IMG/VR virus record: IMGVR_UViG_3300043773_002196
Coordinates: 1 to 32,875 of that record
Source: a virus
Direction: 5' to 3' (one strand)
Length of the DNA stretch: 32,875 nucleotides
Shown here: in pieces, positions 2,134 to 29,415 of the stretch
Position numbering within the stretch: the first letter of the stretch is position 1
Layout: each line of letters begins with the position of its first letter
Made by a program: the position numbers and the translations under genes
Notes under the pieces: generated by a model
The model's input: the letters and a program-made list of their open reading frames with translations, nothing else
What the model was told of the DNA's origin: nothing
Databases searched by the model: none

Positions 2134-2141
2134 GGGTAAAA
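2134..2141 (+). promoter_or_regulatory. GGGTAAAA motif 1 (putative late promoter)
   Basis: This is an exact copy of the octamer that precedes the head-of-unit genes in this window. It directly follows the TAA of the glycosyltransferase gene and leaves 22 bases before the ATG at 2164. That distance leaves little room for both a -10 element and a ribosome binding site if this were a -35 box, so it is better read as the -10-like core. A weak dyad (AAACT/AGTTT) follows. Promoter activity is inferred. Confidence 0.6.
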
Positions 2142-2163
2142 ACTGCTTAGTTTCTGACATCGC

Positions 2164-2862
2164 ATGGACGGCGTAGTTCTGCCTGGCGTTGGTGGCATGA
2201 TCAACGCCTCCAACGCTCAATCTGACCCCTCACTGGAAAAGGAGAATAAGCAGAAACGCAAGTGGGGTGCTGGTGTCAACAAGGAGGGTTTCATGACCAT
2301 CGGTAAGACCGACCACAACGAGCTTCGTCTTGCTAACCATAAAGAGCGTCGTGAGAGCAGGGTAAACCTGATTAACCGATCGATGAACGAGTACGCCGAC
2401 GGCGGTCAGGCGATGAGCGAGATCATGGGCCGCCGCTCCCTCCGCGCCGCCGAACATCGCGAATTGAAGTCGAAGGAGTACGTGTTCTCCGAACAGGAGG
2501 ACGAGTACCTCGCGATGGGTTCGTTCATGCCCTCATTTGATGAGGGTTGCTCCTGTGGGACATGTGCTTCTTGCCGCAGCAAGAAAAAGGCAAACGCAGA
2601 ATATCGTGAGTGGTCGACTGAAAAGCGGAAGGAATTGGCGAAAGGCGAAGTCAAAGGCCACTTTGCTGGCCCCGATCAATCATTCCCTATTTCAAATGCC
2701 ACTGATGTAAAGGCAGCTTGGTCCTCAGTTGGCCGCGCGAAAAATCCTCGCGCTGTCATGAAGCGGATCATTTCAATTGCAAAAGAACTTGGTCTGGAAT
2801 CGGCACTCCCTGACTCTGTCAAACAACGTCTCGCCGAAGGTGGTTCTGGTCTGCCTGGGTGA
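2164..2862 (+). CDS. Phage protein with Cys cluster and C-terminal FAGPDxSFPI domain
   Basis: This 232-aa protein has three recognisable parts. The N-terminal two thirds is charged and helical (KERRESRVNLINRSMNEYAD...). A compact cysteine cluster C-S-C-G-T-C-A-S-C (C-x-C-x2-C-x2-C, about residues 129-136) could bind zinc or an Fe-S centre. The C-terminal region contains HFAGPDQSFPI followed by a helix with SVGRAKNPRAVMKRIISIAKEL. That pattern recurs in many phage and bacterial proteins, often as an add-on to head or structural proteins (DUF6582-like); its function is unknown. This is the first gene after GGGTAAAA motif 1, and its stop overlaps the next start (TGATG). A virion role is inferred. 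Confidence 0.7.
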   Translation: MDGVVLPGVGGMINASNAQSDPSLEKENKQKRKWGAGVNKEGFMTIGKTDHNELRLANHKERRESRVNLINRSMNEYADGGQAMSEIMGRRSLRAAEHRELKSKEYVFSEQEDEYLAMGSFMPSFDEGCSCGTCASCRSKKKANAEYREWSTEKRKELAKGEVKGHFAGPDQSFPISNATDVKAAWSSVGRAKNPRAVMKRIISIAKELGLESALPDSVKQRLAEGGSGLPG

Positions 2863-3149
2863 TGCCGCTACACGTTATCTTCGCGATCGCTGGACCTCTG
2901 ACCGGCTTCATTCTCTCCGTCATCCTGTATCTCGGTAAGAGAAACCTTGACGAGATGACCAACACCTTGAGTAAGGTGCAACACACACTCACCGAGCTGC
3001 GTGTGGAGATTCCTAAGTCCTACGTGACCAAGGAGGAACTACTCTCCCACATGCACGCCGAAGAGCAGTGGCACAGCCACATCACCCAACAACTTCGCGA
3101 CATCCGCGAGGAAATCTCGTCAGTCCGGGACTGGACCCACCGATCATGA
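2862..3149 (+). CDS. Small membrane-anchored coiled-coil protein, 95 aa
   Basis: Residues 1-23 form a hydrophobic N-terminal helix (MPLHVIFAIAGPLTGFILSV), and Lys-Arg directly follows it. The rest is a charged coiled coil with L-R-V-E-I-P-K-S-Y-V-T-K-E-E-L. This plan, one membrane span then a 'lP..YV.k.el' helix, resembles small phage membrane proteins often found near holins and lysis genes, although no lysis gene is visible here. I chose ATG 2862 (TGATG overlap) rather than the GTG one codon earlier. The end overlaps the next ATG as ATGA. It could be a holin-like or superinfection-related inner-membrane protein; this is uncertain. Confidence 0.6.
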   Translation: MPLHVIFAIAGPLTGFILSVILYLGKRNLDEMTNTLSKVQHTLTELRVEIPKSYVTKEELLSHMHAEEQWHSHITQQLRDIREEISSVRDWTHRS

Positions 3150-3820
3150 ACCTTGAAGACTACGATTTTGATCGCCTCCTCGCGCTGGGTTACACCGAGA
3201 AGGCTACCGGCGACCTGAAGGATGCCTGCTGGAAGGGTTACACCGCTGTTGGTCTGAAGAAGAAGGGTGGCCGCACTGTTCCAAACTGTGTGCCCATCAA
3301 AAAGAGCAAGTCTGACCACGCCGAGGAGATGAAGCGTAAGCCACTTATCGCCGGTCCGAGTGCCGGTTCACCGTCCTTTGGTGAGGGCAAGGGGACTGGA
3401 AAGCCATGTGGTGGCTCGCATATTTCGGCCAATAAAACCTGTCACGTTGGTGGTAGTGCCGGATACAAGGACGTGACCGAAGCCATCAGGGCTGACATGG
3501 GAAGCTCCTTCGATGACGCGCATGAGAAAGTGTTTGAGGAGCGCTACGCCAAGGCCAAAGACACAAAGGATCTGGGTCGTATTCACAAGAAAGCCATCAA
3601 GGATCTGGACAATGATGACCTTGATGCTAAAGAGGGTGTCCTCAACGCTATGAAAAAGGCCATGCAAGCTCACCTCGAGGTGAACATGGCGAGCGGTCAG
3701 GGCGCCAAACGTGAGGCGGAACTCGCCGCGATGACCCCTGAGGAGCGTGCGAAGGCTCGTTCGGCGGACGCCATTGAGCGAGGGATCAAGAACAAGGTCG
3801 TCTCCGGGAGAATGCGCTGA
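3146..3820 (+). CDS. Phage protein with ACWKGYxAxGxKKKGGRxVPNC motif, 224 aa
   Basis: The start at ATG 3146 (ATGA overlap) is preferred over an upstream ATG at 3068, which would bury most of the preceding gene. The N-terminus MNLEDYDFDRLLALGYTE is followed by the element ACWKGYTAVGLKKKGGRT ending VPNC (C-x19-C). This element recurs in many phage proteins, including virion and head-associated ones, but its function is unknown to me. A second cysteine pair follows (KPCGGSHISANKTCHVGG, C-x10-C). The C-terminal half is charged and helical (AKDTKDLGRIHKKAIKDL...). There is no enzyme motif. It lies in the middle of the cysteine-pair cluster, so a virion-internal role is plausible but inferred. Confidence 0.7.
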   Translation: MNLEDYDFDRLLALGYTEKATGDLKDACWKGYTAVGLKKKGGRTVPNCVPIKKSKSDHAEEMKRKPLIAGPSAGSPSFGEGKGTGKPCGGSHISANKTCHVGGSAGYKDVTEAIRADMGSSFDDAHEKVFEERYAKAKDTKDLGRIHKKAIKDLDNDDLDAKEGVLNAMKKAMQAHLEVNMASGQGAKREAELAAMTPEERAKARSADAIERGIKNKVVSGRMR

Positions 3821-4176: not shown

Positions 4177-4180
4177 TCTC

Positions 4181-4933: not shown

Positions 4934-4935
4934 TC

Positions 4936-5535
4936 ATGAACACTTTCAACATCCCCTCAGTGGACCACCTCATCGAGAGCGTTCACTATCGCGTCGTCGA
5001 CTGGTCCTTTGCCGAAGGACGCGACCGCGGCCTAGAGACCAACATGCCAGGCCGTGGCGCACCATCCACCTTTGCCGAAGAGTGTGGCCCTGATGAAAAG
5101 ATGATCTTTGGTATGTGTCGAAGCACCAAAACCAACCCCAAAGACGATAAGGACTTCGACTCCTCCAAGAAGACAAAGCAGGAGGAGGAAGGTGAGGCTC
5201 AAGCTAAGAAAGAGGGCTCTGAGTTCAAGAACAATAAGATGATCAAGGATGTGAAGTCCGGTAAGAAACTTGGTTGGGCAATGAAGGATGGTAAGCCTGT
5301 ATTGGTGGAATGGGGATCTGTAGCTGGAGAAAAGAAAGTCGGTTCGAAGAAGCCCGAAGCGAAACCCCAAGGCGGTGGTGGTGGCGGTGGAGCTCAGGCG
5401 CCCAAGCCACAGTCATCGGCTCAGCCTCCAAAGCCAAAGGAAAATAAGGATGAGGCACCAAAGCCGGGCGACCTCCTTCAGAAGGAGCGTCAGGAACGTG
5501 CTGATGCTTGGAGAAAGGGCGGGCAGGCAATGTAA
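4936..5535 (+). CDS. Low-complexity protein with Cys-pair and GWAxKDGKPVLVEWGS motif
   Basis: The true start is taken as ATG 4936 (MNTFNIPSVDHLIESV), just after the previous stop; a longer frame from 4894 only overlaps that gene. The 199-aa product has a C-x10-C element (EECGPDEKMIFGMCRSTK), then a Lys/Glu-rich stretch. A short conserved-looking block, KKLGWAMKDGKPVLVEWGSV, follows. The remainder is a disordered tail rich in Lys, Pro, Gln and seven consecutive Gly. Its TAA overlaps the following ATG (TAATG). No function can be assigned. The architecture, a small folded block in disordered linkers, matches its neighbours. Confidence 0.6.
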   Translation: MNTFNIPSVDHLIESVHYRVVDWSFAEGRDRGLETNMPGRGAPSTFAEECGPDEKMIFGMCRSTKTNPKDDKDFDSSKKTKQEEEGEAQAKKEGSEFKNNKMIKDVKSGKKLGWAMKDGKPVLVEWGSVAGEKKVGSKKPEAKPQGGGGGGGAQAPKPQSSAQPPKPKENKDEAPKPGDLLQKERQERADAWRKGGQAM

Positions 5536-6677
5536 TGATAGGTAGTTTCTCAGAGGAGGCACTTCAGGTTCTGGATTTCGTGCGTTGCGAGCGTCCCAAT
5601 GGAACTGCGTATGGAACTGCGGGAACCTGCCGTAAAGGGGTCGAGAGCGCTGTAGAGACCAAAAAGTACAGCTGGGGCTCCACGATGAAGGTGTCGGGAG
5701 ACGGCGACAGTGTCGTCCTCCACGATGACAATCAAAGTGCCATTGGCAAACTCGCTGACGGTGAGAGCACAACCTTCAGAGCGGATAGTGGGGACAAATG
5801 GACCGCCACTCGCAAGGGCGATACTGTGGAGTTGCAGTCGGGCTCACAGAAACTTTCAGTCAGCCACTCGAGATTCGACCAGGGTGACTCCGATGAGGCC
5901 CCTAAGCCAAAAGCGGAGCCCAAGGCGGAGGAAGCTCCCAAGTCATCTCCTAAAAAGCCGAGAGAGGAGAGCTTCGAAAAAGGTGGTACCTTTGAGGGTG
6001 ATTCAACCAAAATCACTGGAGGGCCTGGAGCCGATGCTGTCAAGAGACAGATCGACCACGCCAAAATGGTGATGGAGAAGTACCCCGACATGGCGGACTC
6101 CATGAAGGGTGAGCTTGAGAAGAATCTGAAGCAGTTGGAGCCCTTCCAAAATAGCCAAAGAGTCCTTGATAGCATCGTCGCCAATGTCCCAGCGGGAACA
6201 ACTGTTAGGGTGACCCCAATGGGCACAATCCAGACAGAATTCACGACGCCCGGCGGAAACGTCGTCAGCACGACATTCGGTCGAAACAGCTTCAACTTCG
6301 AGGTGAATGGCACCTACGAGGCCGGAACGGTGACTCAGGGCCGAAAGGAGGAGATGGCAGTGGCGAGGCAGGTACAACGTTGCTTCAACGCCGTTCTGGG
6401 TTCCCTTCCTGAGGGTTATGTCATGCGAACGTATGCCTACTCCGAGGACGGTAAGGGCGCCTCCAGACAAAGGGCGTACGAGAAGATGGGCTTCTCTAAG
6501 GCGACTCCAGGGGAAAACATCTACGGCAGGCTCAAAGACGGCGTGCTCGTCCCTTCAACAAAAGAGGAGCAGAGTAAAACTGACACAATCCTCTCATTCT
6601 CCGAGGTTGTTGGCCCTAATTCCATGGCTTTATGGTATGTGGCCATCTTCGGAAAAGACCCACGGGTAAAACCTTAG
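5535..6677 (+). CDS. 380-aa protein: N-terminal peptide, Cys-pair, possible GNAT-like C-terminal domain
   Basis: The protein starts MIGSFSEEALQVLDF and runs directly into CERPNGTAYGTAGTCRKG (C18-x13-C32), nearly identical to the motif in the 705-aa kinase-like protein. Residues 35-110 look beta-rich, then comes a Lys/Glu/Pro-rich linker. The C-terminal half contains ARQVQRCFNAVLGSLPEGYV, RTYAYSEDGKGASRQRAYEK and MGFSKATPGENIYGRLKDG. The 'R-A-Y-E-K-M-G-F' step resembles the last strand and helix of GNAT acetyltransferases, but I cannot identify the acetyl-CoA loop, so this is tentative. ATG 5535 is chosen over an upstream in-frame ATG at 5508 that overlaps the preceding gene. The coding end contains GGGTAAAA motif 2. 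Confidence 0.65.
   Translation: MIGSFSEEALQVLDFVRCERPNGTAYGTAGTCRKGVESAVETKKYSWGSTMKVSGDGDSVVLHDDNQSAIGKLADGESTTFRADSGDKWTATRKGDTVELQSGSQKLSVSHSRFDQGDSDEAPKPKAEPKAEEAPKSSPKKPREESFEKGGTFEGDSTKITGGPGADAVKRQIDHAKMVMEKYPDMADSMKGELEKNLKQLEPFQNSQRVLDSIVANVPAGTTVRVTPMGTIQTEFTTPGGNVVSTTFGRNSFNFEVNGTYEAGTVTQGRKEEMAVARQVQRCFNAVLGSLPEGYVMRTYAYSEDGKGASRQRAYEKMGFSKATPGENIYGRLKDGVLVPSTKEEQSKTDTILSFSEVVGPNSMALWYVAIFGKDPRVKP
6664..6671 (+). promoter_or_regulatory. GGGTAAAA motif 2 (putative late promoter)
   Basis: This exact octamer overlaps the last codons of the preceding gene (R-V-K-P-stop) and lies 21 bases before the ATG at 6693. A second, looser copy (AGTAAAAGT) follows about 10 bases on. It is the only motif embedded in coding sequence rather than at or after the stop codon. 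Promoter function is inferred from the shared position upstream of unit-leading genes. Confidence 0.55.
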
Positions 6678-6692
6678 TAAAAGTACTTCCCA

Positions 6693-7379
6693 ATGCGCAA
6701 AGATTCGATCGCCGACGCCGCGCTTAAGCAGGCGTATGAACTCTACAGTTACTCAGAACGCGGCTTCCACGGCACTGGAATCGACGCAGAGGATGTGCCG
6801 GTGCTTGCCCCTCAGGTGAGCAAGCTAAAGAAAGAAGATAAGCCATGGGAGCCTAACTCGGCCTTCTACGGCAATCAGCCACGTGGCAGTGGCCCTCCGA
6901 CCTTCAATTATGGTGAAGAGCAAGGCACAGGCGAGTACAACTCAATGCAAGCTGAGCTGACCGGCCTTATGGACATTCAGGAGCGTCTGAGTGGCCAGCT
7001 TCGTCGTGCCCGTCAAATGGGCAACTTCCAGGAGGAGCACCGCATCGTCAAGGAGCGGAATCAGATCCTGAAGGCGATCTCGGCCGTGGAGGCCAAGATG
7101 ATGGTGAACGATCTCGGCCGTACTCAGCGTGGCATGAACAATGGCATGATGTATGAGTCACAAAATCACCAAGAGGAGGCCAACCCCTTTCGTGATTACG
7201 CCGAGGCCATCAACGAAAATGACGAGAAGATCGCACGTCTCGAGGAGGCCCTTCTGCGGTTTGCCGAGCTAAAGTCTGCTGGTGGTGACGCCGGCGCTGA
7301 CCCTGGTCAGTCCAACTCCCTCGAGGACGAGGAAGATTCCGACGACAAGGAAGACGAAGAGGAACTTGGTGAAGCCTGA
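6693..7379 (+). CDS. Coiled-coil protein with acidic C-terminus, 228 aa
   Basis: The N-terminus MRKDSIADAALKQAYELYSY ends in the 'A-L-x-x-A-Y-E' pattern of the shared N-terminal peptides. About residues 85-160 form a strong coiled coil (MDIQERLSGQLRRARQMGNF..., then IVKERNQILKAISAVEAKMM). A second helix lies near residues 170-195, and the last 25 residues are almost all Asp, Glu, Lys and Ser. It is the first gene after GGGTAAAA motif 2. Its TGA overlaps the ATG of the kinase-like gene (TGATG), so the two are probably translated together and may form a complex. I do not recognise a family; a scaffold-like or adaptor role is inference. Confidence 0.65.
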   Translation: MRKDSIADAALKQAYELYSYSERGFHGTGIDAEDVPVLAPQVSKLKKEDKPWEPNSAFYGNQPRGSGPPTFNYGEEQGTGEYNSMQAELTGLMDIQERLSGQLRRARQMGNFQEEHRIVKERNQILKAISAVEAKMMVNDLGRTQRGMNNGMMYESQNHQEEANPFRDYAEAINENDEKIARLEEALLRFAELKSAGGDAGADPGQSNSLEDEEDSDDKEDEEELGEA

Positions 7380-9496
7380 TGGACGAGCAGGACTTTTACG
7401 ACTTTCGGCGCTGTGTGCGCCCAAACGGAACTGCTTACGGCACGGGCGGCCAATGCCGTAAAGGTGATGAGCAAGGCCTTTCTCAGCGAGTAGGGAAGAA
7501 GTTTCTAGCCCAAGCGACCACACAAAAGCTTGAGGATTACGCTAGACGTGCTCCTCATAAGTATCAGCGTGATGCCATTAAGGCCGAATTGGCCCGTCGT
7601 GCCGGGAAACCGGCATCAGGTCCTGCTGGAAGTAAGCAAAAGCCCAAACCTCTAGATGGTCCCACTAATCGGGCTCTTCAACGTGAGAAGGACAAGTTAA
7701 GCAAGGAGCAAAAGGTTCTTCAAAAAGAGTTAGACGCTCTCATTGCTCAGCGCGATGGTGGAGCGCCTGATAAGAAAGACAAACTCTCAAAGCAAATCAA
7801 CGCTGGATTCCTTGCCAAAGCTCCAAAAGAAAAGCTTGAAGAGTATCTAAAGCGTGCTCCTCACAAATATCAACGGGACCGGATTCAAAAGGCTCTCGAC
7901 GAGAGGGCAAAGATGGATGCTGGGAAAGCTGATAGTGTTCCCCCAGGGCTTAAGCTTGCAGCCAGGTGGAATTTGGAGGCCCGCAAGGAGAACGTGACCC
8001 CGTCCGCTATACGGAAGGAGGCTGCAGCCATTGAAGCTCGGCAAAAGGGCCAAGATCAGGAAGCAGCGAAACAACAAAGCAATAGCGTCAAAGCTAAAAA
8101 TCTGCCTCCCGCTGATTCCAAACTCTTCCGAGGGCTTAATCCGAAGGATCTCGACGATCTCGAGAAGAACTACATTAAGGATGGTAGCCCCGAGGCTATG
8201 GTGAGGCTGGACGCTTTGCGAAGGGAGAGAGCCCGACGTGCGGGGCAGGCCGATCAGCAAGCTCAAAGGAAGGCTCAAGCTGCTGGGGCTCCCGATCCCA
8301 AGTGGGGCAAGTACGGTGACGCCCAACTTCGCAATCAACTCCAAGCTGCGAAGAACCTTGGGAAGGACGCTATGGCAAAGGAAATCGAAGCCGAGATTAA
8401 AAGGCGAGCCAAGGCGAATCCCGCAGATCCCGGCAAATGGAAGAAGTGGGGCGACGAGGAACTTCGTGATCAACGCAGTGTCCTCATTCGTCAGGGAAGA
8501 GCGGGTGAGGCGGGTGACGTCGAAGCTGAGATGGCAAGGCGTGGACTCTCTAAACGTCCATTAGGTCCTGCAGGCCTCCCTCAGAAAGTGAGTAAGTGGA
8601 CTCACGAAAACATGGTGAGGCTCGACGAGCGTGTCGAGAGTGACACCCAGATGCAGATGGGCAAGGAGGATTTCGTCTGGGGCAACTCGCTCAAGAAGGG
8701 AGCTAAACTCCTTGGAGAGGGCGCTTACGGCACGGCCATCGCGGACAAAAACGACGTGGTTGTCAAGCGCGGAACTGTCGGTGAGAATGAGGCGAAACTC
8801 ATTGAGAGACTCGGAAAAGTTGATCTTGGGCCTAAGCTGATCGCCGCGCAGTATGATGGTCCTGGTTACGAGAGAGGTACTCACAATGGCCGCATCGCCA
8901 TGACACGAGTCCCTGGCTCACCAATTGGCAAGAAGAAAGGTGACGAGCCAGTCGGTAAGACTGGTAAGGTTGTTTCTGATGTCTATTGGGAGGCCCGAGC
9001 CAAACTTCACCGTATGGGCATCGCTCACAACGACATGCACATCGAAAACGTCTTCATTGATAGGAATGGAAACGGTCGCTTTGTGGATATGGGCTTGGCC
9101 CAAGCTGGTCCTAAGGCGGCACTCGCCGAGGCCATGGGAGTATTCACCCGAGTTCCTCAAGGGGCTATTAGGAGGGGCGGCTCCGACGCTGGAGATTGGC
9201 AAGTTCGACGTTGGGACGGTACTGCTGGAAAGGAGATGGTGAATGCCGAAATGTCCACCAGTCCAGCAGCAAGGGCGGAATTCGCTCGGAGATTTCCGAC
9301 TGCCTCGAGGGTGCTTCAAAACAAAGAAAAGGCTATATCTAAGCTGAAGAGTTTTGGCCTCACCGATCAGGATGTGGCCGACGTGATTTCACACGGTATC
9401 CGCACTAAAGAAAGTTCCTTTAGTAAGCGTGGTATGGGCAAACTCACTGACGCTCAAGCAAAGCAAGTTATCGAGGTTCTTTACGATGGCATCTGA
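7379..9496 (+). CDS. Protein-kinase-like protein with Cys-pair motif and helical repeats
   Basis: This 705-aa protein begins with FRRCVRPNGTAYGTGGQC-RKG (C12-x13-C26). It then has about five helical repeats of 35-40 residues, two very alike (residues 40-76 and 142-180, both with (L/Y)-x-(R/K)-R-A-P-H-K-Y-Q-R-D), and three looser ones near 240-390. Residues about 430-600 match the protein kinase fold: glycine loop LGEGAYGT (445-452), VVK463 in strand 3, catalytic loop H550-N-D552-M-H-I-E-N557, and D570-M-G metal-binding loop. All key catalytic residues are present, so it is probably active, perhaps on host proteins like T7 gp0.7, although it is unrelated in layout. The activation segment is short and the C-lobe atypical. 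Substrate is unknown. Confidence 0.8.
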   Translation: MDEQDFYDFRRCVRPNGTAYGTGGQCRKGDEQGLSQRVGKKFLAQATTQKLEDYARRAPHKYQRDAIKAELARRAGKPASGPAGSKQKPKPLDGPTNRALQREKDKLSKEQKVLQKELDALIAQRDGGAPDKKDKLSKQINAGFLAKAPKEKLEEYLKRAPHKYQRDRIQKALDERAKMDAGKADSVPPGLKLAARWNLEARKENVTPSAIRKEAAAIEARQKGQDQEAAKQQSNSVKAKNLPPADSKLFRGLNPKDLDDLEKNYIKDGSPEAMVRLDALRRERARRAGQADQQAQRKAQAAGAPDPKWGKYGDAQLRNQLQAAKNLGKDAMAKEIEAEIKRRAKANPADPGKWKKWGDEELRDQRSVLIRQGRAGEAGDVEAEMARRGLSKRPLGPAGLPQKVSKWTHENMVRLDERVESDTQMQMGKEDFVWGNSLKKGAKLLGEGAYGTAIADKNDVVVKRGTVGENEAKLIERLGKVDLGPKLIAAQYDGPGYERGTHNGRIAMTRVPGSPIGKKKGDEPVGKTGKVVSDVYWEARAKLHRMGIAHNDMHIENVFIDRNGNGRFVDMGLAQAGPKAALAEAMGVFTRVPQGAIRRGGSDAGDWQVRRWDGTAGKEMVNAEMSTSPAARAEFARRFPTASRVLQNKEKAISKLKSFGLTDQDVADVISHGIRTKESSFSKRGMGKLTDAQAKQVIEVLYDGI

Positions 9497-9647: not shown

Positions 9648-9651
9648 GCCT

Positions 9652-9659
9652 GGGTAAAA
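9652..9659 (+). promoter_or_regulatory. GGGTAAAA motif 3 (putative late promoter)
   Basis: This exact octamer begins four bases after the stop codon at 9647 and lies 46 bases before the ATG at 9706. Between them is a six-base-pair hairpin (9669-9684). It heads the first tail-fibre gene. Confidence 0.65.
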
Positions 9660-9668
9660 GTGCTGAAA

Positions 9669-9684
9669 GCCCGTCTTTACGGGC
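9669..9684 (+). other. Short hairpin in the leader of the large fibre gene
   Basis: GCCCGT, a CTTT loop and ACGGGC form a perfect six-base-pair stem between GGGTAAAA motif 3 and the ATG at 9706. There is no following T-run, so it is not a standard intrinsic terminator. It could stabilise the 5' end of the messenger or terminate weakly the upstream unit. Confidence 0.4.
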
Positions 9685-9705
9685 ACGCACTCGCTCCTCA
9701 GCAAC

Positions 9706-14226: not shown

Positions 14227-14227
14227 C

Positions 14228-15780: not shown

Positions 15781-15782
15781 CC

Positions 15783-18172: not shown

Positions 18173-18173
18173 C

Positions 18174-19112: not shown

Positions 19113-19113
19113 C

Positions 19114-20066: not shown

Positions 20067-21161
20067 ATGGCATTTACCCCTTACAACTTTCCAGACACCC
20101 CGTTCGACGGTCAACTCTACCCCAACCCTGCGGTTCCCGGTACTTTCCAGTACAAGTGGGACCTAACAAAAGGTGTGTGGGTGTTGGTTTCCGGAGCCGT
20201 GCTTCAGGTTCTGGGCAACGATCCTATTGTGATCACGGGCACCGCTGCGGTTCCCACTGTCAACATCAAGCCCGCTACAATCAACAACGCTGGTTCGCTC
20301 TCAGCAACGGACAAACAAAAACTCGACAGCCTGCCTCCAACAGTTGGTTCCGTGACACGGATCAACACCGGAGTTGGACTGACAGGCGGTCCGATCACGT
20401 CTTCAGGCACTCTCTCACTTGTTCCACCTTCTGGACCGAACATCGGCGGGGTGAAAGCTGGTCAGGGAGTCACCATCCTTCCTGACGGAACGATCGAGTC
20501 GAATGCTGGTGTGACGTCTATCACTGCGGGTCCTGGACTTGGTGGTGGCACAATCACTGGCACTGGCACCATCTTCCTTCGCCCACCAACTGGCGGCATC
20601 ATTGGTGGTGTGAAAGCCGGGAACAACATCACCATCTCCTCTGACGGCACAATCAGTGCGGCTGGTGGTGAGGGAGCGACAGGAGCATTCATCATCCTAG
20701 ACGACATTGCTCCACAATTTGACGGGATTAAGACACAATTCACTTGTAGGGTGAATGGTGGAGCGCAGCTCGTTGACTCGGCTGCCAACCTCTTCATCGT
20801 TCTCGGTGGAATTTTGCAGCCCTCGCCTGCAACTTTCACCGTGATCAACAACGAAGACTTGAGGTTTGTCTCCCCTCCAGCGGCTGGAACCACATTTAGT
20901 GGCCGTCTGTTTGTTCCGAACGGTCAGTCGTTCCAAATCATCGAGGATATCTCTTCGCAGTTCAACGGGGTCAACACCACGTTCCAACTGCGAGTTGGTG
21001 GGCAACCTTATCAGCCCGCAAGTCCAGCTCCCCTCTTCGTGGCAGTTGGTGGTATTCTTCAGACTCCCTACGTGGCCTTCACCACTAGCGCAAACAACAT
21101 TGTCTTCAGTTCGGCACCGCCTGCTGGGGCTACTTTCAGTGGTCAGGTGCTAGGATTCTGA
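20067..21161 (+). CDS. Tail fibre, NFPxxPxxGQLYP class, 364 aa
   Basis: The N-terminal module (YNFPDTPFDGQLYPNP, then PGTFQYKWDLTKGVW) is shared with 21163, 21924 and 25879 and probably anchors the fibre. Residues about 60-200 hold GGV repeats (GLTGGPITSSGTLSL, NIGGVKAGQGVTI, IIGGVKAGNNITI) plus ATDKQKLDSLP, a common fibre trimerisation-like segment. The C-terminus has two successive copies of the recurrent FxG..T.F domain (FDGIKTQF...GGILQPSP... and FNGVNTTFQL...GGILQTP...PPAGATFSG). No enzymatic motif is visible. It is the first gene after motif 5, and the next ATG lies two bases after its stop. Fibre function is inferred. Confidence 0.75.
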   Translation: MAFTPYNFPDTPFDGQLYPNPAVPGTFQYKWDLTKGVWVLVSGAVLQVLGNDPIVITGTAAVPTVNIKPATINNAGSLSATDKQKLDSLPPTVGSVTRINTGVGLTGGPITSSGTLSLVPPSGPNIGGVKAGQGVTILPDGTIESNAGVTSITAGPGLGGGTITGTGTIFLRPPTGGIIGGVKAGNNITISSDGTISAAGGEGATGAFIILDDIAPQFDGIKTQFTCRVNGGAQLVDSAANLFIVLGGILQPSPATFTVINNEDLRFVSPPAAGTTFSGRLFVPNGQSFQIIEDISSQFNGVNTTFQLRVGGQPYQPASPAPLFVAVGGILQTPYVAFTTSANNIVFSSAPPAGATFSGQVLGF

Positions 21162-21162
21162 T

Positions 21163-21924
21163 ATGGCCTTCAACTTCCCAAGCAACCCAACGGATGGGCA
21201 GCTCTACCCAGACCCTCCGGTTCCAGGCGCTCAGCAATACATCTACAACGGTACGAAGGAAGTTTGGCTCACCACAGCACGTGGCGTGCAACAACTCTTC
21301 GCCGAGCAGCCTATCTATCTGACGGGCACAGACGAAGCGCCGATCATCAACATCAACCCAGCCACCCCAACCGACGGTGGCTACATGACTGCCGCCGATA
21401 AGGACAAGCTTGATAAGCTCAAAATTGCCAACGGCACGGTAGAGGAGATCACAGCGGGTGTTGGCCTTGGCGCACCTCTGACGGGCGACAAGATCACCGT
21501 CACTGGCACCCTCGACCTCCTTCCACCAACTCCGGTCTCCATTGGAGGTGTGAGAGAGGGCGACAACACCGTCATCTCCACGGACGGTCGACTCTCTGTC
21601 AAGCCTCCTTCCTCTCTGATCAACGGAGCTGTCCGTCAGGGGAAGGGACTTACCATCTCCGCCGATGGTGTGGCTTCCATCGCCAACGGTGGAACCTACA
21701 CTCTTATTGACAGTTTGACCACTCAGTTCAACGGCACCTCTGTCGCCTTTGCGTTGAGAAGCGCGGGGATTCCCTTCTCTCCGTCGTCTCCAAACTCCCT
21801 TCTGGTTTTCATCGGGGGGATCGTTCAAATCCCCAACGTTTCCTTCACTGTGAGCGGTAGTACCATCACTTTCGGTTCCGCGCCGCCGACAGGAGCCACC
21901 TTTTACGCTGTCTCACTCACATAA
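21163..21924 (+). CDS. Tail fibre, NFPxxPxxGQLYP class, 253 aa
   Basis: A short paralogue of the 20067 protein. It has the N-terminal module FNFPSNPTDGQLYPDP and AQQYIYNGTKEVW, then MTAADKDKLDKLK, then GGV-like repeats (GVGLGAPLTGDKITVTGTL, SIGGVREGDNTVI). The C-terminus has one copy of the recurrent domain (FNGTSVAFALR...LLVFIGGIVQIPN...APPTGATFYAVSL). Its stop overlaps the next ATG (TAATG). Lengths of shafts differ between paralogues while the ends are kept, as expected for modular fibres. Confidence 0.75.
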   Translation: MAFNFPSNPTDGQLYPDPPVPGAQQYIYNGTKEVWLTTARGVQQLFAEQPIYLTGTDEAPIININPATPTDGGYMTAADKDKLDKLKIANGTVEEITAGVGLGAPLTGDKITVTGTLDLLPPTPVSIGGVREGDNTVISTDGRLSVKPPSSLINGAVRQGKGLTISADGVASIANGGTYTLIDSLTTQFNGTSVAFALRSAGIPFSPSSPNSLLVFIGGIVQIPNVSFTVSGSTITFGSAPPTGATFYAVSLT

Positions 21925-22982
21925 TGGCTTACATCTTTCCAGTTAACCCAGTAGACGGCCAGCTGTATCCCGTCCCCGCCATTCCAGGGTCACTTCAGTA
22001 CCAGTGGAGTTCGGCTCAGCGCAGCTGGTTGATCTACTCCCCACTGGGCGTGACCTCCATCACGGCGGTTCTCCCGCTCCAGGTGACGAACCCGACTGAC
22101 GACGCCGTCATCAGCATCCTCCCCGCCACCGTCAACAACCCCGGCTCGATGTCGGCAGCTGACAAGGCGAAGTTGGACGGGATCCCGCCTGACGCGGCAC
22201 CTGGTACGGTGACCCAGATCAACACAGGCCCAGGACTCGCCGGCGGTCCGATCACTGAGAGTGGCACTATCGATCTTGAACCGGCGACGAGAACCACTGA
22301 GGGTGGTGTGATCATTGGTGAGAACATTGATGTCGACGCTGCTGGTGTGATTTCCATTCCGGCCGCTCGATTTGGTGTCACGAGCATCAACATCGGCCCT
22401 GGTCTCATCGGAGCTCCGTCACCCATCGTCAACACCGGCACCATCTCCGCCGCGCTCGCGACGCGTCTGACTGTCGGTTCGGTTCGAGTCGGTGCTGGAA
22501 TCGCGGTGGCTCCTGACGGCACTATTTCAGTCGACGGTGCTTTGTCCAAAGCCCAGATTCTCGCCTACGCCTCCGTCTCCGTCGCTAACGCCTCCAGCCC
22601 ACCGGTTTTCACCGTTCTCGAAAGCTACAACGTCTCAGCAATCACTTGGGCAGGAACTACAACCTACCCCCGGGTTCGTGTCACCTTCCAGAACCCGTTG
22701 GTAAACACCAACTACGGAATTGTCAGTGGCGCCACTTCCGCTCAGACTTTCCCTCCAGCGTCGGGAACGAACCCACAAAGAAGTCAGGTCCTTAACTTGA
22801 GCAACAGGACAAACTCATACTTTGAACTTCAACTTTCCACCTTAGCTGTGTCAAACGTAGTCACCAACGTGTCTAACACTACCCTTTGGAATGACTGGTC
22901 TAACACCGTCCCAGGCCCGGCAGGTGGTCCTGCTGGTATCGCCCAGTTTGACTTTGCGATCATCGACACCCCAGTGTTCTGA
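21924..22982 (+). CDS. Tail fibre, NFPxxPxxGQLYP class, 352 aa
   Basis: The N-terminal module reads YIFPVNPVDGQLYPVP and GSLQYQWSSAQRSW, followed by MSAADKAKLDGIPPDA and GGV-type repeats (GLAGGPITESGTIDL, EGGVIIGENIDVD, GLIGAPSPIVNTGTI, VGAGIAVAPDGTIS). The C-terminal 150 residues differ from those of its paralogues (LAYASVSVANASSPPVF...VPGPAGGPAGIAQFDFAII) and may be the variable receptor-binding part. The stop is followed two bases later by the 22985 gene. Fibre role is inferred. Confidence 0.75.
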   Translation: MAYIFPVNPVDGQLYPVPAIPGSLQYQWSSAQRSWLIYSPLGVTSITAVLPLQVTNPTDDAVISILPATVNNPGSMSAADKAKLDGIPPDAAPGTVTQINTGPGLAGGPITESGTIDLEPATRTTEGGVIIGENIDVDAAGVISIPAARFGVTSINIGPGLIGAPSPIVNTGTISAALATRLTVGSVRVGAGIAVAPDGTISVDGALSKAQILAYASVSVANASSPPVFTVLESYNVSAITWAGTTTYPRVRVTFQNPLVNTNYGIVSGATSAQTFPPASGTNPQRSQVLNLSNRTNSYFELQLSTLAVSNVVTNVSNTTLWNDWSNTVPGPAGGPAGIAQFDFAIIDTPVF

Positions 22983-22984
22983 CC

Positions 22985-23473
22985 ATGGACGTTATCATTT
23001 ATCCGGACCCCTCAAGTCCAGCACCCTCAAGGCTTCAGGTCGTCTTCCCAGCCAACGACACACTCGAAGAGTACGCTTTCAAGTACCTTGAGTCGTACTC
23101 GATTGACTACCTGACCGTGGAATACTCCACTATCCCACAGTCTCCATACATCGGCGCAGCACAACTCGTCGAGTTTGTGTCAGGAGATCCAGTTTACAGC
23201 TACGACCTGGACGAAGCCAAAGACATCGCTTCTGGAATCAACTCCCGCTACTGGCAAAATCAGTACGACGCTGGGCTGCTCGGTGTTGGAATCACCAATG
23301 ACTACCAACTGCAACTCGCAGTGGCAACTCCTGAGGGTGAGAGGACAGCTGATCAAATCGCTGCCATTGAGTTCATGTCCGGAATCAACGGTCTACAGAC
23401 TGAAGTTCAAGACGAAATTGACGCCGCAACCACGGGTGAGGAGATCATTACTATCCTGAGCCAGCTCGGGTAA
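22985..23473 (+). CDS. Fibre-associated protein, possible assembly chaperone, 162 aa
   Basis: This small acidic protein (MDVIIYPDPSSPAPSRLQV...) lacks fibre repeats. Its C-terminal half is helical (AADQ-like TADQIAAIEFMSGINGL, ending IDAATTGEEIITILSQLG). The ending resembles that of the 30582 protein (INAATTTTQLYSF) and of small tail-fibre assembly proteins that often close fibre operons, where a helix with a 'xAATTxEE' turn is common. The position after three fibre genes supports that reading, but similarity is weak. The TAA stop overlaps motif 6. Confidence 0.5.
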   Translation: MDVIIYPDPSSPAPSRLQVVFPANDTLEEYAFKYLESYSIDYLTVEYSTIPQSPYIGAAQLVEFVSGDPVYSYDLDEAKDIASGINSRYWQNQYDAGLLGVGITNDYQLQLAVATPEGERTADQIAAIEFMSGINGLQTEVQDEIDAATTGEEIITILSQLG

Positions 23474-23475
23474 AA
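23468..23475 (+). promoter_or_regulatory. GGGTAAAA motif 6 (putative late promoter)
   Basis: This exact octamer contains the stop codon of the preceding gene (GGG-TAA-AA) and lies 21 bases before the ATG at 23497, tied for the shortest spacing in the window. A small palindrome (CAGTT-TC-AACTG) follows. Confidence 0.6.
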
Positions 23476-23496
23476 CAGTTTCAACTGGTTTGAAAG

Positions 23497-25872
23497 ATGG
23501 CGAACGCTTTTACTAAGGCCCAATTTATGGAGCCACCGTCAACCTCGGCGGTGGGTCCAGTCCCCGTAGGTGCTGTAAAAGCGGGGAGTGGCATTCAGAT
23601 CGCAGCTGACGGCACGATCAGCACCACTCAGGGTGGCGGAACGATCCAAAACATCGTTTGCACCAACGGTATTCAAGGCGGTGGGTCCACTGCACAGGTG
23701 TTCATCGGTCTTTTGCCTCCCACTGAGACAACGATCGGTGGTGTTTACACGGTTGACGGCTCCGGTATCTCGATTGACACCAACGGCTTAATCCGTTCAG
23801 CTACTAACTACGTACTGACTCCTGGCAACGGTATTTTTCTGACCAACGTGACCCCTGGGGGAGCCACGGTCAACTTGAGGATTGCTGGTGCGGCGGCGAA
23901 CAGCCTTGGTGGCATTTACGTCAACCCAACTCTAAACCCAGGCTTGGCCGTCTCTCCGGACGGAAGCCTGACACTCACGCCTCCTCAGAGTACGGGCATT
24001 GGTGGAGTCAAGGCGGGTGTTGGGTGCACGATCAGCGCACTAACCGGCGAACTGAACTGCACGGGAACAGGAGGAACAATCACAGGTGTTGGCGCTGGAA
24101 CCGGTCTTGGTGGCGGAGGCATCTCTGGAGCGGTTACCGTCTTCCTCCGTCCAGCCAACGCGACCACAATTGGTGGCATCTACCCTGGCGCAAACTGTAC
24201 AGTCGACCCTGACGGTAAACTCAACGTTGACAGCGGAGCTCTTGGCGTTTTAAGTGTTAACGCCGCGCCGGGAAGTGCCATTGTCGTTACTGGCACCTCC
24301 GCTGACCCACTCGTTGGAGTGAACGTGGCGAGCACCACTGGTGACGGTGTGGTCACCATTGTGGACTCCACTTCTTCCACTCAAGTGGCTGGCTTTGCAG
24401 CCTCACCAAACTCGGTGAAGACGGTGGCTGACGCTGCCGCCTTAAAACTCCCCTTCACTGGGGGACAAATGACGGGTCTCATCGGTTTCCAAGCTGGTCA
24501 GACTTTTCCGGGAACTGTCAGCTCAGCCGCCTTCACACAGACTGGCGGACTTCTTGTTGGTGACTCGTCCCCTCCAGGCTACGCTCAGCTTCCTGTTGGA
24601 GCGGACACTTACGTTCTCTCCGCAAACTCGTCCGCACCACTCGGACTTGAGTGGGTTCCGAGTGCCACTAGCCCAACCCTCCAAGTCGTCACCACCGCCG
24701 GCGCGACTACCAACGTAACAACCACGTTCAGTAGCTCCGCACCTGGAGAAACGGGCCTCAAGACAGTGCTGTCTGGCAGAGCCGTCACGTTCTTTGACGG
24801 CACAAACGACTTCATTACGATTGAAAACCAACCGGGAGGAAGCCAAAGAGTAAACTTCGGACCGGTGGCGGGCACTACTGGTCTTAGTTTCTACAGTCCC
24901 CCTGGTGGCGAAAGTCCCAACATCCGGGCTCGTTCTTTCACGGGGAACCTTACAATCTCCGGCGGTTCGCAACTCTTCTTCGAAAGCACCTCGGGTGACC
25001 CCTGGGGCAACTTCACAAGCACCGGGTTCACTGTCGACGTCCCGCTTACAGCCTCAGGTCTCAGTTACCCGAGCGTTGACGGTGCCGCAGGTTCCGCAAT
25101 GACGACGAACGGCGCGGGAGTTCTGAGTTTTGCTCCCGTTTTGCTGCTTGGCGGCGGAACGATGACCGGAAACATTACGTTCAACGGGACTCAAACTTTC
25201 CCAGGCGTTCTCGTTAATGGGAGCATTGGCGGCTCTGGAGCGATCACCGTTGGCGGAACACCATCCAACCCAATTATCTCCGCAAACACTGCGACCTCTT
25301 CAGCTCTTGGTGTGGTTCAGCCCGACGGCACCACAATCACGATCAATGGCAGTGGTGTGATCTCCGCCGCCAGTGGTGGAGCTTCGCTACCACTTGCTGG
25401 TGGCACGATGACCGGCAACATCGTGTTTGCTGCTGGTCAGACTTTTCCTGGAACGCTCTCCTCCACACTGTTGGATGTTACGGGCGACATTGTTTTCGCT
25501 TCGGCCCCAAATACTCCCGCCTCTCTCCCAATTGGGGCGGCGGGTTCTATCCTTGCGGTTAACGGTGGAACGCCAGCCTGGCGCACTTCGACTCAACTCG
25601 ACTTACTGACAAGTGCAGCGGCGTCAACCACTTACGCCCCACTCAACTCCCCGACTTTCACTGGGCCTGTTACTGTTAACGCAGGCGGCGGAGCCGGGGC
25701 TAACGCCCTCGTAGTCAGTGGGGGAAACCTCGTCTTAGCCACCTCTTTCACCCCTGCTTCTTCTAGCGATACGGGAAGCACTGGGGAATTAGCTTGGGAC
25801 GCCAACTATTTGTATTTCTGCTACGCCCCCAACTCTTGGGGTCGCGTCGCCGTAGACCTGACTCCGTTCTGA
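23497..25872 (+). CDS. Tail fibre, KAQxMxPP class, 791 aa
   Basis: The N-terminal module (FTKAQFMEPPSTSAV... GAVKAGSGIQIAADGTI) is shared with 28595 and 29459. It is followed by at least seven GGV-type repeats to about residue 250 (TIGGVYTVDGSGI, LGGIYVNPTLNPG, IGGVKAGVGCTI, IGGIYPGANCTV). The middle has repeated MTGLIGFQAGQTFPGT, MTGNITFNGTQTFPG and MTGNIVFAAGQTFPGT units, a beta-solenoid-like element seen in many fibres. The C-terminus ends SSSDTGSTGELAWDANYLYF-CYAPNSWGRVAVDL, a frequent phage tail-fibre tip block. It heads the unit of motif 6 and is followed six bases later by the 25879 gene. Receptor-binding fibre is the likely role. Confidence 0.8.
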   Translation: MANAFTKAQFMEPPSTSAVGPVPVGAVKAGSGIQIAADGTISTTQGGGTIQNIVCTNGIQGGGSTAQVFIGLLPPTETTIGGVYTVDGSGISIDTNGLIRSATNYVLTPGNGIFLTNVTPGGATVNLRIAGAAANSLGGIYVNPTLNPGLAVSPDGSLTLTPPQSTGIGGVKAGVGCTISALTGELNCTGTGGTITGVGAGTGLGGGGISGAVTVFLRPANATTIGGIYPGANCTVDPDGKLNVDSGALGVLSVNAAPGSAIVVTGTSADPLVGVNVASTTGDGVVTIVDSTSSTQVAGFAASPNSVKTVADAAALKLPFTGGQMTGLIGFQAGQTFPGTVSSAAFTQTGGLLVGDSSPPGYAQLPVGADTYVLSANSSAPLGLEWVPSATSPTLQVVTTAGATTNVTTTFSSSAPGETGLKTVLSGRAVTFFDGTNDFITIENQPGGSQRVNFGPVAGTTGLSFYSPPGGESPNIRARSFTGNLTISGGSQLFFESTSGDPWGNFTSTGFTVDVPLTASGLSYPSVDGAAGSAMTTNGAGVLSFAPVLLLGGGTMTGNITFNGTQTFPGVLVNGSIGGSGAITVGGTPSNPIISANTATSSALGVVQPDGTTITINGSGVISAASGGASLPLAGGTMTGNIVFAAGQTFPGTLSSTLLDVTGDIVFASAPNTPASLPIGAAGSILAVNGGTPAWRTSTQLDLLTSAAASTTYAPLNSPTFTGPVTVNAGGGAGANALVVSGGNLVLATSFTPASSSDTGSTGELAWDANYLYFCYAPNSWGRVAVDLTPF
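23560..24250 (+). repeat. GGV-type repeats in the 791-aa fibre
   Basis: The longest run of the Gly-rich fibre repeat in the window. At least seven units, each with a (L/I)GG(V/I) core followed 6 to 10 residues later by an (S/A)-x-D-G turn, cover about 230 residues. Borders are approximate. Confidence 0.6.
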
Positions 25873-25878
25873 TAACCC

Positions 25879-28557
25879 ATGTCTCAGCTGAACTTCCCTG
25901 ACAACCCGCTGAACGGGCAACTGTACCCGAACCCCTGTCCAACGGGAGTCACACAGTACCGCTGGGACTCCTCAACGGGGATCTGGCGAATTGTCGGCGT
26001 GGCGACCGGTGTCGTTCCCGGAACTTACGGTGACTCGATCAACGTCGGTCAGTTCTCTGTCGACGTGCAAGGCAACGTCACTCAAGCCGCCAACATCGCC
26101 ATTCGCAACGCGACTCTGACATTGACAGGTGTCGTTCAGCTTGAGGACACACTCACTTCGGTCTCAACAAGCAGAGCGCTGACTGCCGCAGCTGGCAAAA
26201 GACTGCAGGACCAGATTGGCAACCTCAACACGTGCATTGTACCAAACAACGCGAATGTAGTTCTTGCACTCAACGATCTGCAAAATCAGACCTTCCAGCT
26301 CCAACAAGGAGCGATGATCTGGTGCGGATACTATAACGCGCAAGAAGGTGATATTTCGTATGTCAGTGACACTGGCTTCCGTCTCGGCTATCGAATCGGA
26401 CAGGAGCTTCCGAACCCTGGGCCAAGTAACGGTGGTGACTTCTTCATCGTTAACATTTCCGGGAATCCTTACATCGCGGGAGACACCAATGCTCCGAACC
26501 AGCAGATTGAGGCCGGAAATTGGCTCATTTCGGAGGTCAACCGGTGGCAGGAAGTCGACTCTCGAGGTAGAATTCGCGCCATCGATGTCGAATACACGCC
26601 GAACTTCCCACTCACCGCGATAAACGTTCAGAGCGCTTTATTTCAAATCACGCAGTTGTTCCGCACTGGAATTGGCGGCGCGACTGTCTCCTCCACGAAG
26701 CCACCGAACCCTTACCCGGGCCAACTCTGGTGGGACAACGATGACGGCCTGTTCTACATCTATTACCGTGACCAAAACGGTGACCAATGGGTTGAGGCAA
26801 GTGGTAGCGCCGGTGGAATTGCAAGTGGTCTTGGCAGTGGCGGCGGCAGTGTCTATGAGGTGAAAACTGGCAAGGGTCTCACCGGCGGTCCGATTGTGAC
26901 CACAGGCACTGTCAGTCTCAAGCCCGCTTTCTACAACTCTCTCACTCCCACAAACTCCGAGATCGGCGGCGTTGTCCCCAACCTCGGTTTCTCCTACAAC
27001 AACACCAGCGGACTCCTCAACCTCAAGGTTTCCTCTGACCCTCAAGGCAAGGACCCGTTCACGGCTTTCAGTCAGGCTGGCGCCAACATCATCAACTCGA
27101 AGGTCAACTTCGTCACTGGCAAAGGCGTTCTAGCCGGCACCTACGACGCCTCCGAAGGTGTGATGGCAACTGTCACACCAGCTGGTGACGCAAACGGTTT
27201 CGTTGTGGGTGAAGGTCTTCCGACATCAATCGCTTCACTCAACAACTTCTATGCGATCGTCACTGTTGCTGGTGATGACGCCAAGTCCGGGGACTGGTTC
27301 GTCTGCACGTCGACCGAGTGGTTCCTGATTGACTTCCAGACCACCTTCTCAAGCGCCAGAAACATCGATGTGACCTCCATCGACGGGCTTGAGTTCTCCG
27401 GTGACGTTCAGTCCGTCCTTGAAGACCTTCAACTCGAGGTGGGCAACCGTGTGGGTGGTCTGACATCACTCAGCGACGGTCTCATTATCGAGTCCAGTGG
27501 TTCCGGCCTCTTCGGTTCGACCGCCTCCTTTTCCCTTCTCCCCGCAAGTGTGGACAACGCGGGAGTTGTGCAACTCACCAGTGACATCACTGGAAACTCC
27601 GAGTCGTTGGCGGTCTCACAGCTCGCTGTCAGTCAGCTCAACACCAAAGTTCAGTCTCTGTCGAGTGGCCCACGTGTCCTCGCCGGAACGTTCAACGCGA
27701 CAACAGGTCTTGTTGTCTCCGTCACCGCTGCAGGTCTTGACGCAGGCTTCAAGGTTGACGAGCCTGCTCCCAACGCCGTGCTCGTCCCCGAGAACTTCTA
27801 CCTGATTGTCACAGTCTCTGGCGGTTTCGGACCGTCTGGCGCTGAAGTGTCCGAGCAAGGCGACTGGTTCCTGACGGAGCGCACCGATGTTGGCAACTAT
27901 TGGGCTGGCATCCACTTTGACAACCTCTCCTCAGCCGCCACCAACGTCTCCCTCGCCCCGGTTTCCAACCTTACTGCGACAAACGTTCAGGATGGCATCT
28001 CTCAGCTGCAGGAAGCTGTCGATGAGGCCGTATGGAATGTCTTCGTTGACGGTGCTGGACTTACAGCTGAGAAGACACCGCTCCTTGGCGGAGCTGGCTC
28101 GAACGTCACCCTCTCACTGACACCTGCCTCCTCAACAAACCTTGGTGGAGTCACTGTCTTCCCCAACAAGGGACTTGGCATCAACGATCAGGGATCACTC
28201 GCTGTTGTCCCAGCCACGACCAGTTCTCTCGGTGGCATGATTGTCGGTGACAACTTGACGGTGGATAGTAACGGACGCGTGAGCGCTGTGATCCCACCTC
28301 AAACCATTCCGCAAATCCGCCTCCTCGACGACATCTCACTGCAGTTCACAGGCCGTAAATCGACTTTCCTTATCACAAGCGCTGGTAATGAACTTCCCCG
28401 CACTGTGGGCTTGGCACAACTTTTCATCGTGATCAATGGCTCTGACCTTCGCCCCGGGATTGACTTCAGCTGGGATCCTAACAATTCGCTTCTGACTATA
28501 TCCACGGCTCCTGCAGTCGGCAGCACTTTCTCAGGTCGAGTGATAACTTTCTCCTGA
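25879..28557 (+). CDS. Tail fibre, NFPxxPxxGQLYP class, 892 aa
   Basis: The N-terminal module LNFPDNPLNGQLYPNP with QYRWDSSTGIWR matches 20067, 21163 and 21924. Later modules are an LWWN unit (NPYPGQLWWDNDDGLFYIYY, about residues 280-312), GGV repeats (about 330-390 and 735-805), and two copies of a roughly 100-residue domain. Those copies are marked VLAGTYDASEGVMATVTPAG...NFYAIVTVAG...GDWF (about 415-480) and VLAGTFNATTGLVVSVTAAG...NFYLIVTVSG...GDWF (about 597-665). The C-terminus is the recurrent FxG-x-x-T-F domain (FTGRKSTFLITSAG...APAVGSTFSGRVITF). It ends just before motif 7. It may form a long fibre together with the 23497 protein, with which it shares a transcription unit. Confidence 0.8.
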   Translation: MSQLNFPDNPLNGQLYPNPCPTGVTQYRWDSSTGIWRIVGVATGVVPGTYGDSINVGQFSVDVQGNVTQAANIAIRNATLTLTGVVQLEDTLTSVSTSRALTAAAGKRLQDQIGNLNTCIVPNNANVVLALNDLQNQTFQLQQGAMIWCGYYNAQEGDISYVSDTGFRLGYRIGQELPNPGPSNGGDFFIVNISGNPYIAGDTNAPNQQIEAGNWLISEVNRWQEVDSRGRIRAIDVEYTPNFPLTAINVQSALFQITQLFRTGIGGATVSSTKPPNPYPGQLWWDNDDGLFYIYYRDQNGDQWVEASGSAGGIASGLGSGGGSVYEVKTGKGLTGGPIVTTGTVSLKPAFYNSLTPTNSEIGGVVPNLGFSYNNTSGLLNLKVSSDPQGKDPFTAFSQAGANIINSKVNFVTGKGVLAGTYDASEGVMATVTPAGDANGFVVGEGLPTSIASLNNFYAIVTVAGDDAKSGDWFVCTSTEWFLIDFQTTFSSARNIDVTSIDGLEFSGDVQSVLEDLQLEVGNRVGGLTSLSDGLIIESSGSGLFGSTASFSLLPASVDNAGVVQLTSDITGNSESLAVSQLAVSQLNTKVQSLSSGPRVLAGTFNATTGLVVSVTAAGLDAGFKVDEPAPNAVLVPENFYLIVTVSGGFGPSGAEVSEQGDWFLTERTDVGNYWAGIHFDNLSSAATNVSLAPVSNLTATNVQDGISQLQEAVDEAVWNVFVDGAGLTAEKTPLLGGAGSNVTLSLTPASSTNLGGVTVFPNKGLGINDQGSLAVVPATTSSLGGMIVGDNLTVDSNGRVSAVIPPQTIPQIRLLDDISLQFTGRKSTFLITSAGNELPRTVGLAQLFIVINGSDLRPGIDFSWDPNNSLLTISTAPAVGSTFSGRVITFS

Positions 28558-28565
28558 GGGTAAAA
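28558..28565 (+). promoter_or_regulatory. GGGTAAAA motif 7 (putative late promoter)
   Basis: This exact octamer begins immediately after the TGA stop (CTGAGGGTAAAAG) and lies 29 bases before the ATG at 28595. Confidence 0.65.
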
Positions 28566-28594
28566 GTCTTACAAAGCCGCATTTACGCTGAAAC

Positions 28595-29413
28595 ATGGCC
28601 AATCTTGCGACTGCCCAACTTATGGAGCCACCGGAGGACGGGGGCCCCGCGTTTGTTGGTGCGGTGAAACAGGGAACTGGCATTTTCCTTGATGCTCCCA
28701 CTGGAACCGTCAATGCTGACTTAAACGCATTTTGTAGCAAGATTATCGCTGGCACAGACATTCAAATCTTGCCAGGAAGCGGTATTGGCACGGTCACAAT
28801 CTCCTCAACCATTAGAATTGACCCGAACTCGTATCTGCCGATCGGGACTCAGATGACATTCTATCAGTCTGGTGCTCCTCCGCGTTGGATCACTGAAAAT
28901 CCCGGCACCCGCATGCTTCGTATTAACAGTACGGGGGGTGGTCAGGGTGGTTCTTCAGACTGGACCACTTGCTTCACCACTCAGACTTTCACCGGCAGTG
29001 TTAGCACAGGAGGGGCCAGTATCAGTGGAAGTACTGACACTGTGAATGAAACTCCGTCAGGTTCAGTTCAAGTCAGCGGCGTTTCTCTTGGGGCCACTTC
29101 ACTGTCAGAAGGTCAACTACCGGGCCACACACACCAATACGCGCGTAGACCCCAGAACGGTCAAAAATCTGGTAACCAGAATGGTGTGGCCGACTCGGAT
29201 TTCAATGAGCCTACTGGAGCAGCTGGCGGTGGCGGAGCTCATAGCCACAGCGTAAGCGGTGGTGGTGGTTCTTTCAGCGGCAACAATATGTCCCACAGTC
29301 ATAGTGTCTCCGGAAGTTTGAACGGTTCTGGATCTTTTACCGGGGGCTCAGTAGATCTCAACGTGCAGTACATCGACATGATTGTCTGCCGAAAACTCAG
29401 CAATCCGGGGTAA
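28595..29413 (+). CDS. Fibre tip protein with three HxH motifs, 272 aa
   Basis: The N-terminus (LATAQLMEPPEDGG... VGAVKQGTGIFLD) is the KAQxMxPP anchor module. A collar-like start follows (PIGTQMTFYQSGAPPRWITE). Then comes a Ser/Gly-rich, beta-patterned tip with GHTH, AHSH and SHSH triplets, the block YARRPQNGQKSGNQNGVADS, and an ending ...VDLNVQYIDMIVCRK. This recalls the needle-shaped, HxH metal-binding receptor tip of T4 gp37, in composition and motif rather than by alignment. The 29459 protein is a close paralogue. The TAA stop lies in motif 8. A receptor-binding tip is the likely role. Confidence 0.75.
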   Translation: MANLATAQLMEPPEDGGPAFVGAVKQGTGIFLDAPTGTVNADLNAFCSKIIAGTDIQILPGSGIGTVTISSTIRIDPNSYLPIGTQMTFYQSGAPPRWITENPGTRMLRINSTGGGQGGSSDWTTCFTTQTFTGSVSTGGASISGSTDTVNETPSGSVQVSGVSLGATSLSEGQLPGHTHQYARRPQNGQKSGNQNGVADSDFNEPTGAAGGGGAHSHSVSGGGGSFSGNNMSHSHSVSGSLNGSGSFTGGSVDLNVQYIDMIVCRKLSNPG

Positions 29414-29415
29414 AA
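29408..29415 (+). promoter_or_regulatory. GGGTAAAA motif 8 (putative late promoter)
   Basis: This exact octamer contains the stop codon of the previous gene (GGG-TAA-AA) and lies 43 bases before the ATG at 29459. A GGGG/CCCC four-pair hairpin can form across it. It heads a three-gene unit. Confidence 0.65.

Follow-up and report, generated by a model that had tools for sequence, protein, structure and literature searches.

The octamer GGGTAAAA is very probably the on-switch of virion-building genes in S-CBWM1-like cyanophages, with a phage sigmaB/SigF-type sigma factor as its probable reader

Late promoters of the TATAAATA type in T4 lie at the -10 position, have no -35 element, and are placed at late genes; presumably they also serve cyanophage S-PM2. 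They depend on a phage-encoded sigma factor, gp55, which belongs to phrog_234, with the sliding clamp and gp33 as coactivators. A second point of comparison is the sigmaB/SigF family, whose promoters follow the pattern GTTTWW-N~14-GGGWAW for sigmaB of B. subtilis and S. aureus and TAGGC...GGTAA for SigF of Synechocystis. The sigmaB -10 consensus is GGGWAW (PMC11156646, PMC8346170). In the open complex formed by S. aureus sigmaB, -15G is read by R110, -14G by R100, and -13G by R97, with -11A flipped out (PMC11156646); the GGTAA read by SigF of Synechocystis is at -12 (PMC2758279). SPO1 gp28/gp34 and the sporulation-like sigma factors of Bacillus phages also redirect the host polymerase. Some of these phage sigmas are SigF/SigG-like, and the sporulation-like ones are dispensable in SPO1 and SP10 (PMC9429907).

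The octamer described here, GGGTAAAA, has elements of each. Like the T4 late promoter, it would be an 8-bp, -10-only element of late structural genes served by a phage-encoded sigma, but its sequence is different, no gp55 homologue was found, and the candidate sigma comes from another family. It has the GGGTA -10 core in common with sigmaB/SigF promoters and probably the same reader family. Unlike those promoters, it has no -35 element, the AAA after GGGTA is nearly fixed, it stands before phage virion genes, and its candidate reader is phage borne and without conserved -35-contact residues. The sporulation-like sigmas are dispensable in SPO1 and SP10, whereas the sites of the octamer cover the virion genes.

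The stretch of DNA that was analyzed (the window) spans IMG/VR record IMGVR_UViG_3300043773_002196 from end to end (32,875 bases). It is a phage fragment and not a complete genome, so genome-wide claims needed relatives. PHROG and tblastn comparisons matched its genes to tail fibres, a baseplate-wedge protein, PhoH, a kinase-like protein, a glycosyltransferase, and a 2OG oxygenase. Among isolates, Synechococcus phage S-CBWM1 (NC_048106, Aokuangvirus) comes closest; the wedge proteins are 35% identical over 85%, and PhoH, kinase, wedge, fibres, and a minus-strand gene follow a similar order in both. No near-DNA match of the window to isolate phages was found. We conclude that the window is a fragment of an S-CBWM1 relative. 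The conserved phrog_7595 protein was tried as a guide, but it is present in many unrelated phages and was useful only as a background set. The kinase-like gene (7379-9496) has weak Pkinase and PHROG kinase matches, and several serine/threonine kinases are encoded by S-CBWM1. Five consecutive genes at 14281-20025 have tail-collar or fibre matches and may represent duplicated receptor-binding fibres of a single operon. A stable hairpin, GCCCGUCUUUACGGGC (9669-9684; z=-3.4), is part of the leader predicted for the baseplate-wedge gene, and a similar one, CCCGTCATCACGGG, occurs at the same place in the relative G002.

An exact word search of both strands found eight copies of GGGTAAAA in the window, every one of them on the + strand (Table 1); they are the same eight that the initial annotation had noticed. 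That annotation had expected about one copy by chance; in 100 dinucleotide-preserving shuffles the mean was 0.72 and the largest count 3. It had also placed a copy at every + strand gap of at least 15 bases, and our recount, made with our own gene calls, agreed: there are eight such gaps between 32 and 31316, each with a copy inside or, at gap 6678-6692, adjoining. In this count, bases 1-31 belong to a PhoH gene truncated at the window edge, and a seeming 574-base gap (4934-5507) vanishes when an ORF in frame 4936-5535 is included. The distance from the octamer end to the ATG, when re-measured, was again 21-46 bases, and, as had been proposed, the TAA of the motif doubles as a stop codon at two sites (23471 and 29411); at 20025, the upstream TAG stop ends on the first G of the motif. 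What had been missed is a continuation, N7-A-R, directly after the octamer in 8/8 window copies (reversed-pattern control, 0). The near-consensus word AGGTAAAA at 4163 may be a ninth, weaker site.

Table 1. Predicted promoter cores in the window, with predicted transcription starts and genomic context.
Feature	Position	Strand	Predicted +1	Context	Relatives
Predicted core GGGTAAAA	2134..2141	+	A 2149	Upstream of gene 2164-2862	
Predicted core GGGTAAAA	6664..6671	+	6679	Overlaps 3' end of ORF 5508-6677; upstream of 6693-7379 and kinase-like 7379-9496	Conserved in G002 and G003
Predicted core GGGTAAAA	9652..9659	+	9667	Upstream of baseplate-wedge/tail-fibre gene 9706-14226	GGGTAAGA in G002; GGGTAAAA at identical -54 in G003
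Predicted core GGGTAAAA	14228..14235	+	14243	Upstream of tail-collar-fibre operon 14281-20025	
Predicted core GGGTAAAA	20025..20032	+	20040	Upstream of fibre operon 20067-23473	-42 also in G002
Predicted core GGGTAAAA	23468..23475	+	23483	Holds TAA stop of 22985-23473; upstream of structural gene 23497-25872	-29 spacing also in G002
Predicted core GGGTAAAA	28558..28565	+	28573	Abuts TGA stop of 25879-28557; upstream of 28595-29413	
Predicted core GGGTAAAA	29408..29415	+	29423	Holds TAA stop of 28595-29413; upstream of 29459-30253	
Near-consensus AGGTAAAA	4163..4170	+		10 bases upstream of ATG 4181	

In the complete S-CBWM1 genome, 33 copies of the octamer are on the coding strand and a single copy is on the opposite strand. 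Twenty-four copies sit 20-62 bases upstream of annotated genes, and the operons led by an octamer include portal, head protease, major head, tape measure, baseplate-wedge, and fibre genes; two copies are upstream of tRNA genes. With gene classes that we assigned from the record annotation, and with operons allowed, an octamer precedes 16 of the 21 virion or packaging genes versus 2 of the 37 other named genes (Fisher p=3e-8), the two exceptions being NMNAT and PhoH. The region from 26.7 to 47.5 kb, which holds small unknown genes, a topoisomerase, and a DNA polymerase, is octamer free; this fits a late-gene role, with timing inferred. GGGTAAAA is thus very probably, as judged from sequence, the on-switch of virion-building genes in this group of cyanobacterial viruses.

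Can a strand-specific octamer near gene starts instead act on the RNA (in translation, processing, or antitermination) or serve as a tag for DNA packaging or recombination? At 21-46 bases from the ATG it is beyond ribosome-binding range, it is selectively upstream of virion genes plus the two S-CBWM1 tRNA genes, and it fits a sigma-factor -10 consensus and is carried alongside a matching sigma. We regard a role of this kind as very unlikely.

When no word was chosen in advance, GGGTAAAA was the top upstream-enriched 8-mer in the window, in S-CBWM1, and in the relatives G002 (IMG/VR 3300006641_000078), G003, G018, and G019, and it tied for first in G013. Of the 83 copies in six genomes, 66 fall 18-75 bases upstream of a start (5.0 expected). 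The 24 single-mismatch words tested in the six genomes were mostly at background, with the exceptions of AGGTAAAA (9/19) and GGGTAAGA (3/6); AGGTAAAA was the only common single mismatch enriched upstream, and the tolerated pattern is almost only RGGTAARA. In G002 the octamer is kept upstream of orthologues at 40-79% protein identity, with nearly unchanged spacing (G002/window: -33/-29, -50/-53, -42/-42, -29/-29, and -31/-37), and the downstream flanks are 19-44% identical at five of six sites and 74% at the sixth. Two other relatives carry a sigma of the gp045 family described below: G010 (IMGVR 3300035703_000020) weakly favours GGGTAAG(A) and its octamer is weak, and the AT-rich G011 (3300010354_000050) has no clear octamer enrichment. 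The initial annotation had proposed a late promoter with a -10-like role. The S-CBWM1 distribution, the late-gene association, the footprinting, and the intolerance of mismatches strongly support a promoter; its lateness is read from gene class.

No -35 or other upstream element was found in 93 dereplicated sites, either by position or as 4-6-mers with free spacing. GTTTAA was present at 0/93 sites, GTTT had no positional peak, and the positions of GTTT and TTGAC revealed no -35; the sites have no sigmaB/SigF-type GTTTWW at about 14 bp. The GGGWAW -10 of that family is present in all copies, as GGGTAA. Downstream of the octamer in the 93 sites, positions 9-10 are pyrimidines and positions 15-16 are A or a purine; all eight window copies have A at position 16, and S-CBWM1 and G003 favour A at position 15, not 16. 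These data suggest a -10-only element with a likely transcription start 7-8 bases after the octamer. In sigmaB numbering, GGGTAAAA would occupy -15 to -8, and +1 would be octamer position 16, the invariant A in the window. Short conserved promoters are typical of single-subunit phage polymerases as well, so that a T7-type enzyme might be the reader; however, T7-type promoters are longer and span the start site, and PF00940 had no match in S-CBWM1 or G010, a weak test in which no positive control matched. We consider such a reader highly improbable.

Which sigma factor might read a -10-only octamer? The window has no sigma gene within its 32,875 bases, and S-CBWM1 has two, gp045 and gp055. The initial annotation had suggested a gp55-like factor of changed specificity, that is, a T4-type late promoter that has drifted, and the size, -10 position, lack of a -35, and late-gene placement of the octamer are like those of TATAAATA. 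However, phrog_234 was absent from S-CBWM1 and 22 relatives in a search that found the T4 member. TATAAATA occurs 0 times in S-CBWM1 versus 9-32 times in T4, Syn9, and S-PM2, and these three phages have no excess of GGGTAAAA. The suggestion is contradicted for S-CBWM1, and we give it almost no credence. The sliding-clamp model PF02916 matched T4 only; it was silent also in the T4-like phages Syn9 and S-PM2 and is therefore insensitive.

The best match of gp045 is to SigB/SigF/SigG (E=2.8e-14), over regions 2-3, and the proteins of its family match TIGR02980 (SigBFG) in 34/34 cases, below the curated cut-off of that model. A profile of gp045 relatives recovered 62 IMG/VR loci, 52 of them clear relatives. 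Octamer density was 2.18 per 10 kb in these 52 sigma-bearing loci compared with 0.41 in 79 loci of other phages (p=7e-14, an optimistic value because some loci are near-duplicates). Strand bias alone was rejected as proof because the reversed word (34:8) and unrelated phages (36:7) are biased too. In 48 sigma-bearing loci, 133 of 167 coding-strand octamers are no more than 120 bases from an ORF start. By family, by residues (below), and by co-occurrence, a sigmaB/F-type phage sigma is the probable reader of the octamer.

An alternative is that the octamer is a promoter read by gp055, which is likewise phage encoded and resembles SigK/SigE/RpoS, or by host SigF, given the -12 GGTAA read by the Synechocystis protein (PMC2758279). 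However, gp055 is without the LRD..VPR segment that bears the GGG-reading arginines, and it matches an ECF superfamily model over its full length, including the -35-reading end, yet the sites have no -35 motif. The host SigF promoter has a TAGGC -32 box, but no upstream element is enriched at octamer sites, and octamer density follows the gp045 family. These readers appear unlikely to us.

To return to gp045, we aligned its family profile to the sigmaB chain 8x6g_H. SigmaB R110 and R100 correspond to R103 and R93, both invariant in 34/34 gp045-family sequences, and R97 corresponds to H90, also invariant in 34/34. The family combines homology in regions 2-3 with putative GGG-reading residues, and the flipped -11A is implied. 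SigmaB contacts the -35 through S235, Q236, M237, and R241, and the profile has A, E, E, and E at these places; the corresponding columns of the region 4 helix-turn-helix are variable or acidic, and the segment is poorly conserved. This apparent loss of -35-contact residues matches the absent -35 element, and a sigma without them, together with promoters without a -35, would make a -10-only late promoter. An AlphaFold model of the sigma (pTM 0.42) supported a helical sigma fold and did not settle the domain arrangement.

These results can potentially be explained as follows. GGGTAAAA would be the core (-15 to -8) of an S-CBWM1-like cyanophage late promoter, and its reader would be the host RNA polymerase core carrying a sigmaB/SigF-type factor that the phage encodes, a member of the S-CBWM1 gp045 family. 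The GGG would be read as double-stranded DNA by regions 2 and 3 of this sigma, the A of GGGTA would be flipped out to nucleate melting, and transcription would start at a purine 7-8 bases past the octamer. The phage sigma would have lost recognizable -35-reading residues, giving a layout like that of T4 with a reader from the sigmaB family. We hold this account of an S-CBWM1-like, -10-only late promoter read by a gp045-family sigma to be quite probable. With somewhat less confidence, we favour the view that a stress sigma of the sigmaB/SigF type gave rise, independently and within one cyanophage clade, to a -10-only late system resembling that of T4, in which -35 reading was lost, the GGG-reading arginines were kept, and one GGGTAAAA drives most of the virion regulon.

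If so, phages would have a third sigma-based route to late transcription, in addition to those of gp55 and SPO1 gp34, and one in which sigmaB-family chemistry works without a -35 box. The late genes of uncultured S-CBWM1-like phages would become readable from DNA alone, and R103, R93, and H90 are predicted to read GGG. This raises the question of how -35 anchoring is replaced, by a coactivator or simply by strong binding at -10. No paper pairing GGGTAAAA with phage and promoter was found in the literature searched, a search that the original S-CBWM1 genome paper lay outside.

Cyanophage S-TIM5 (NC_019516) resembles S-CBWM1 in having a SigF-annotated sigma and no gp55 match found, but it has no excess of GGGTAAAA. 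Instead, GTTTAAA(G) stands upstream of its structural genes, where GTTTAAAG recurs; GTTTAAAG occurs 12 times in 50 kb versus once for the reversed word and is possibly a parallel short phage promoter.
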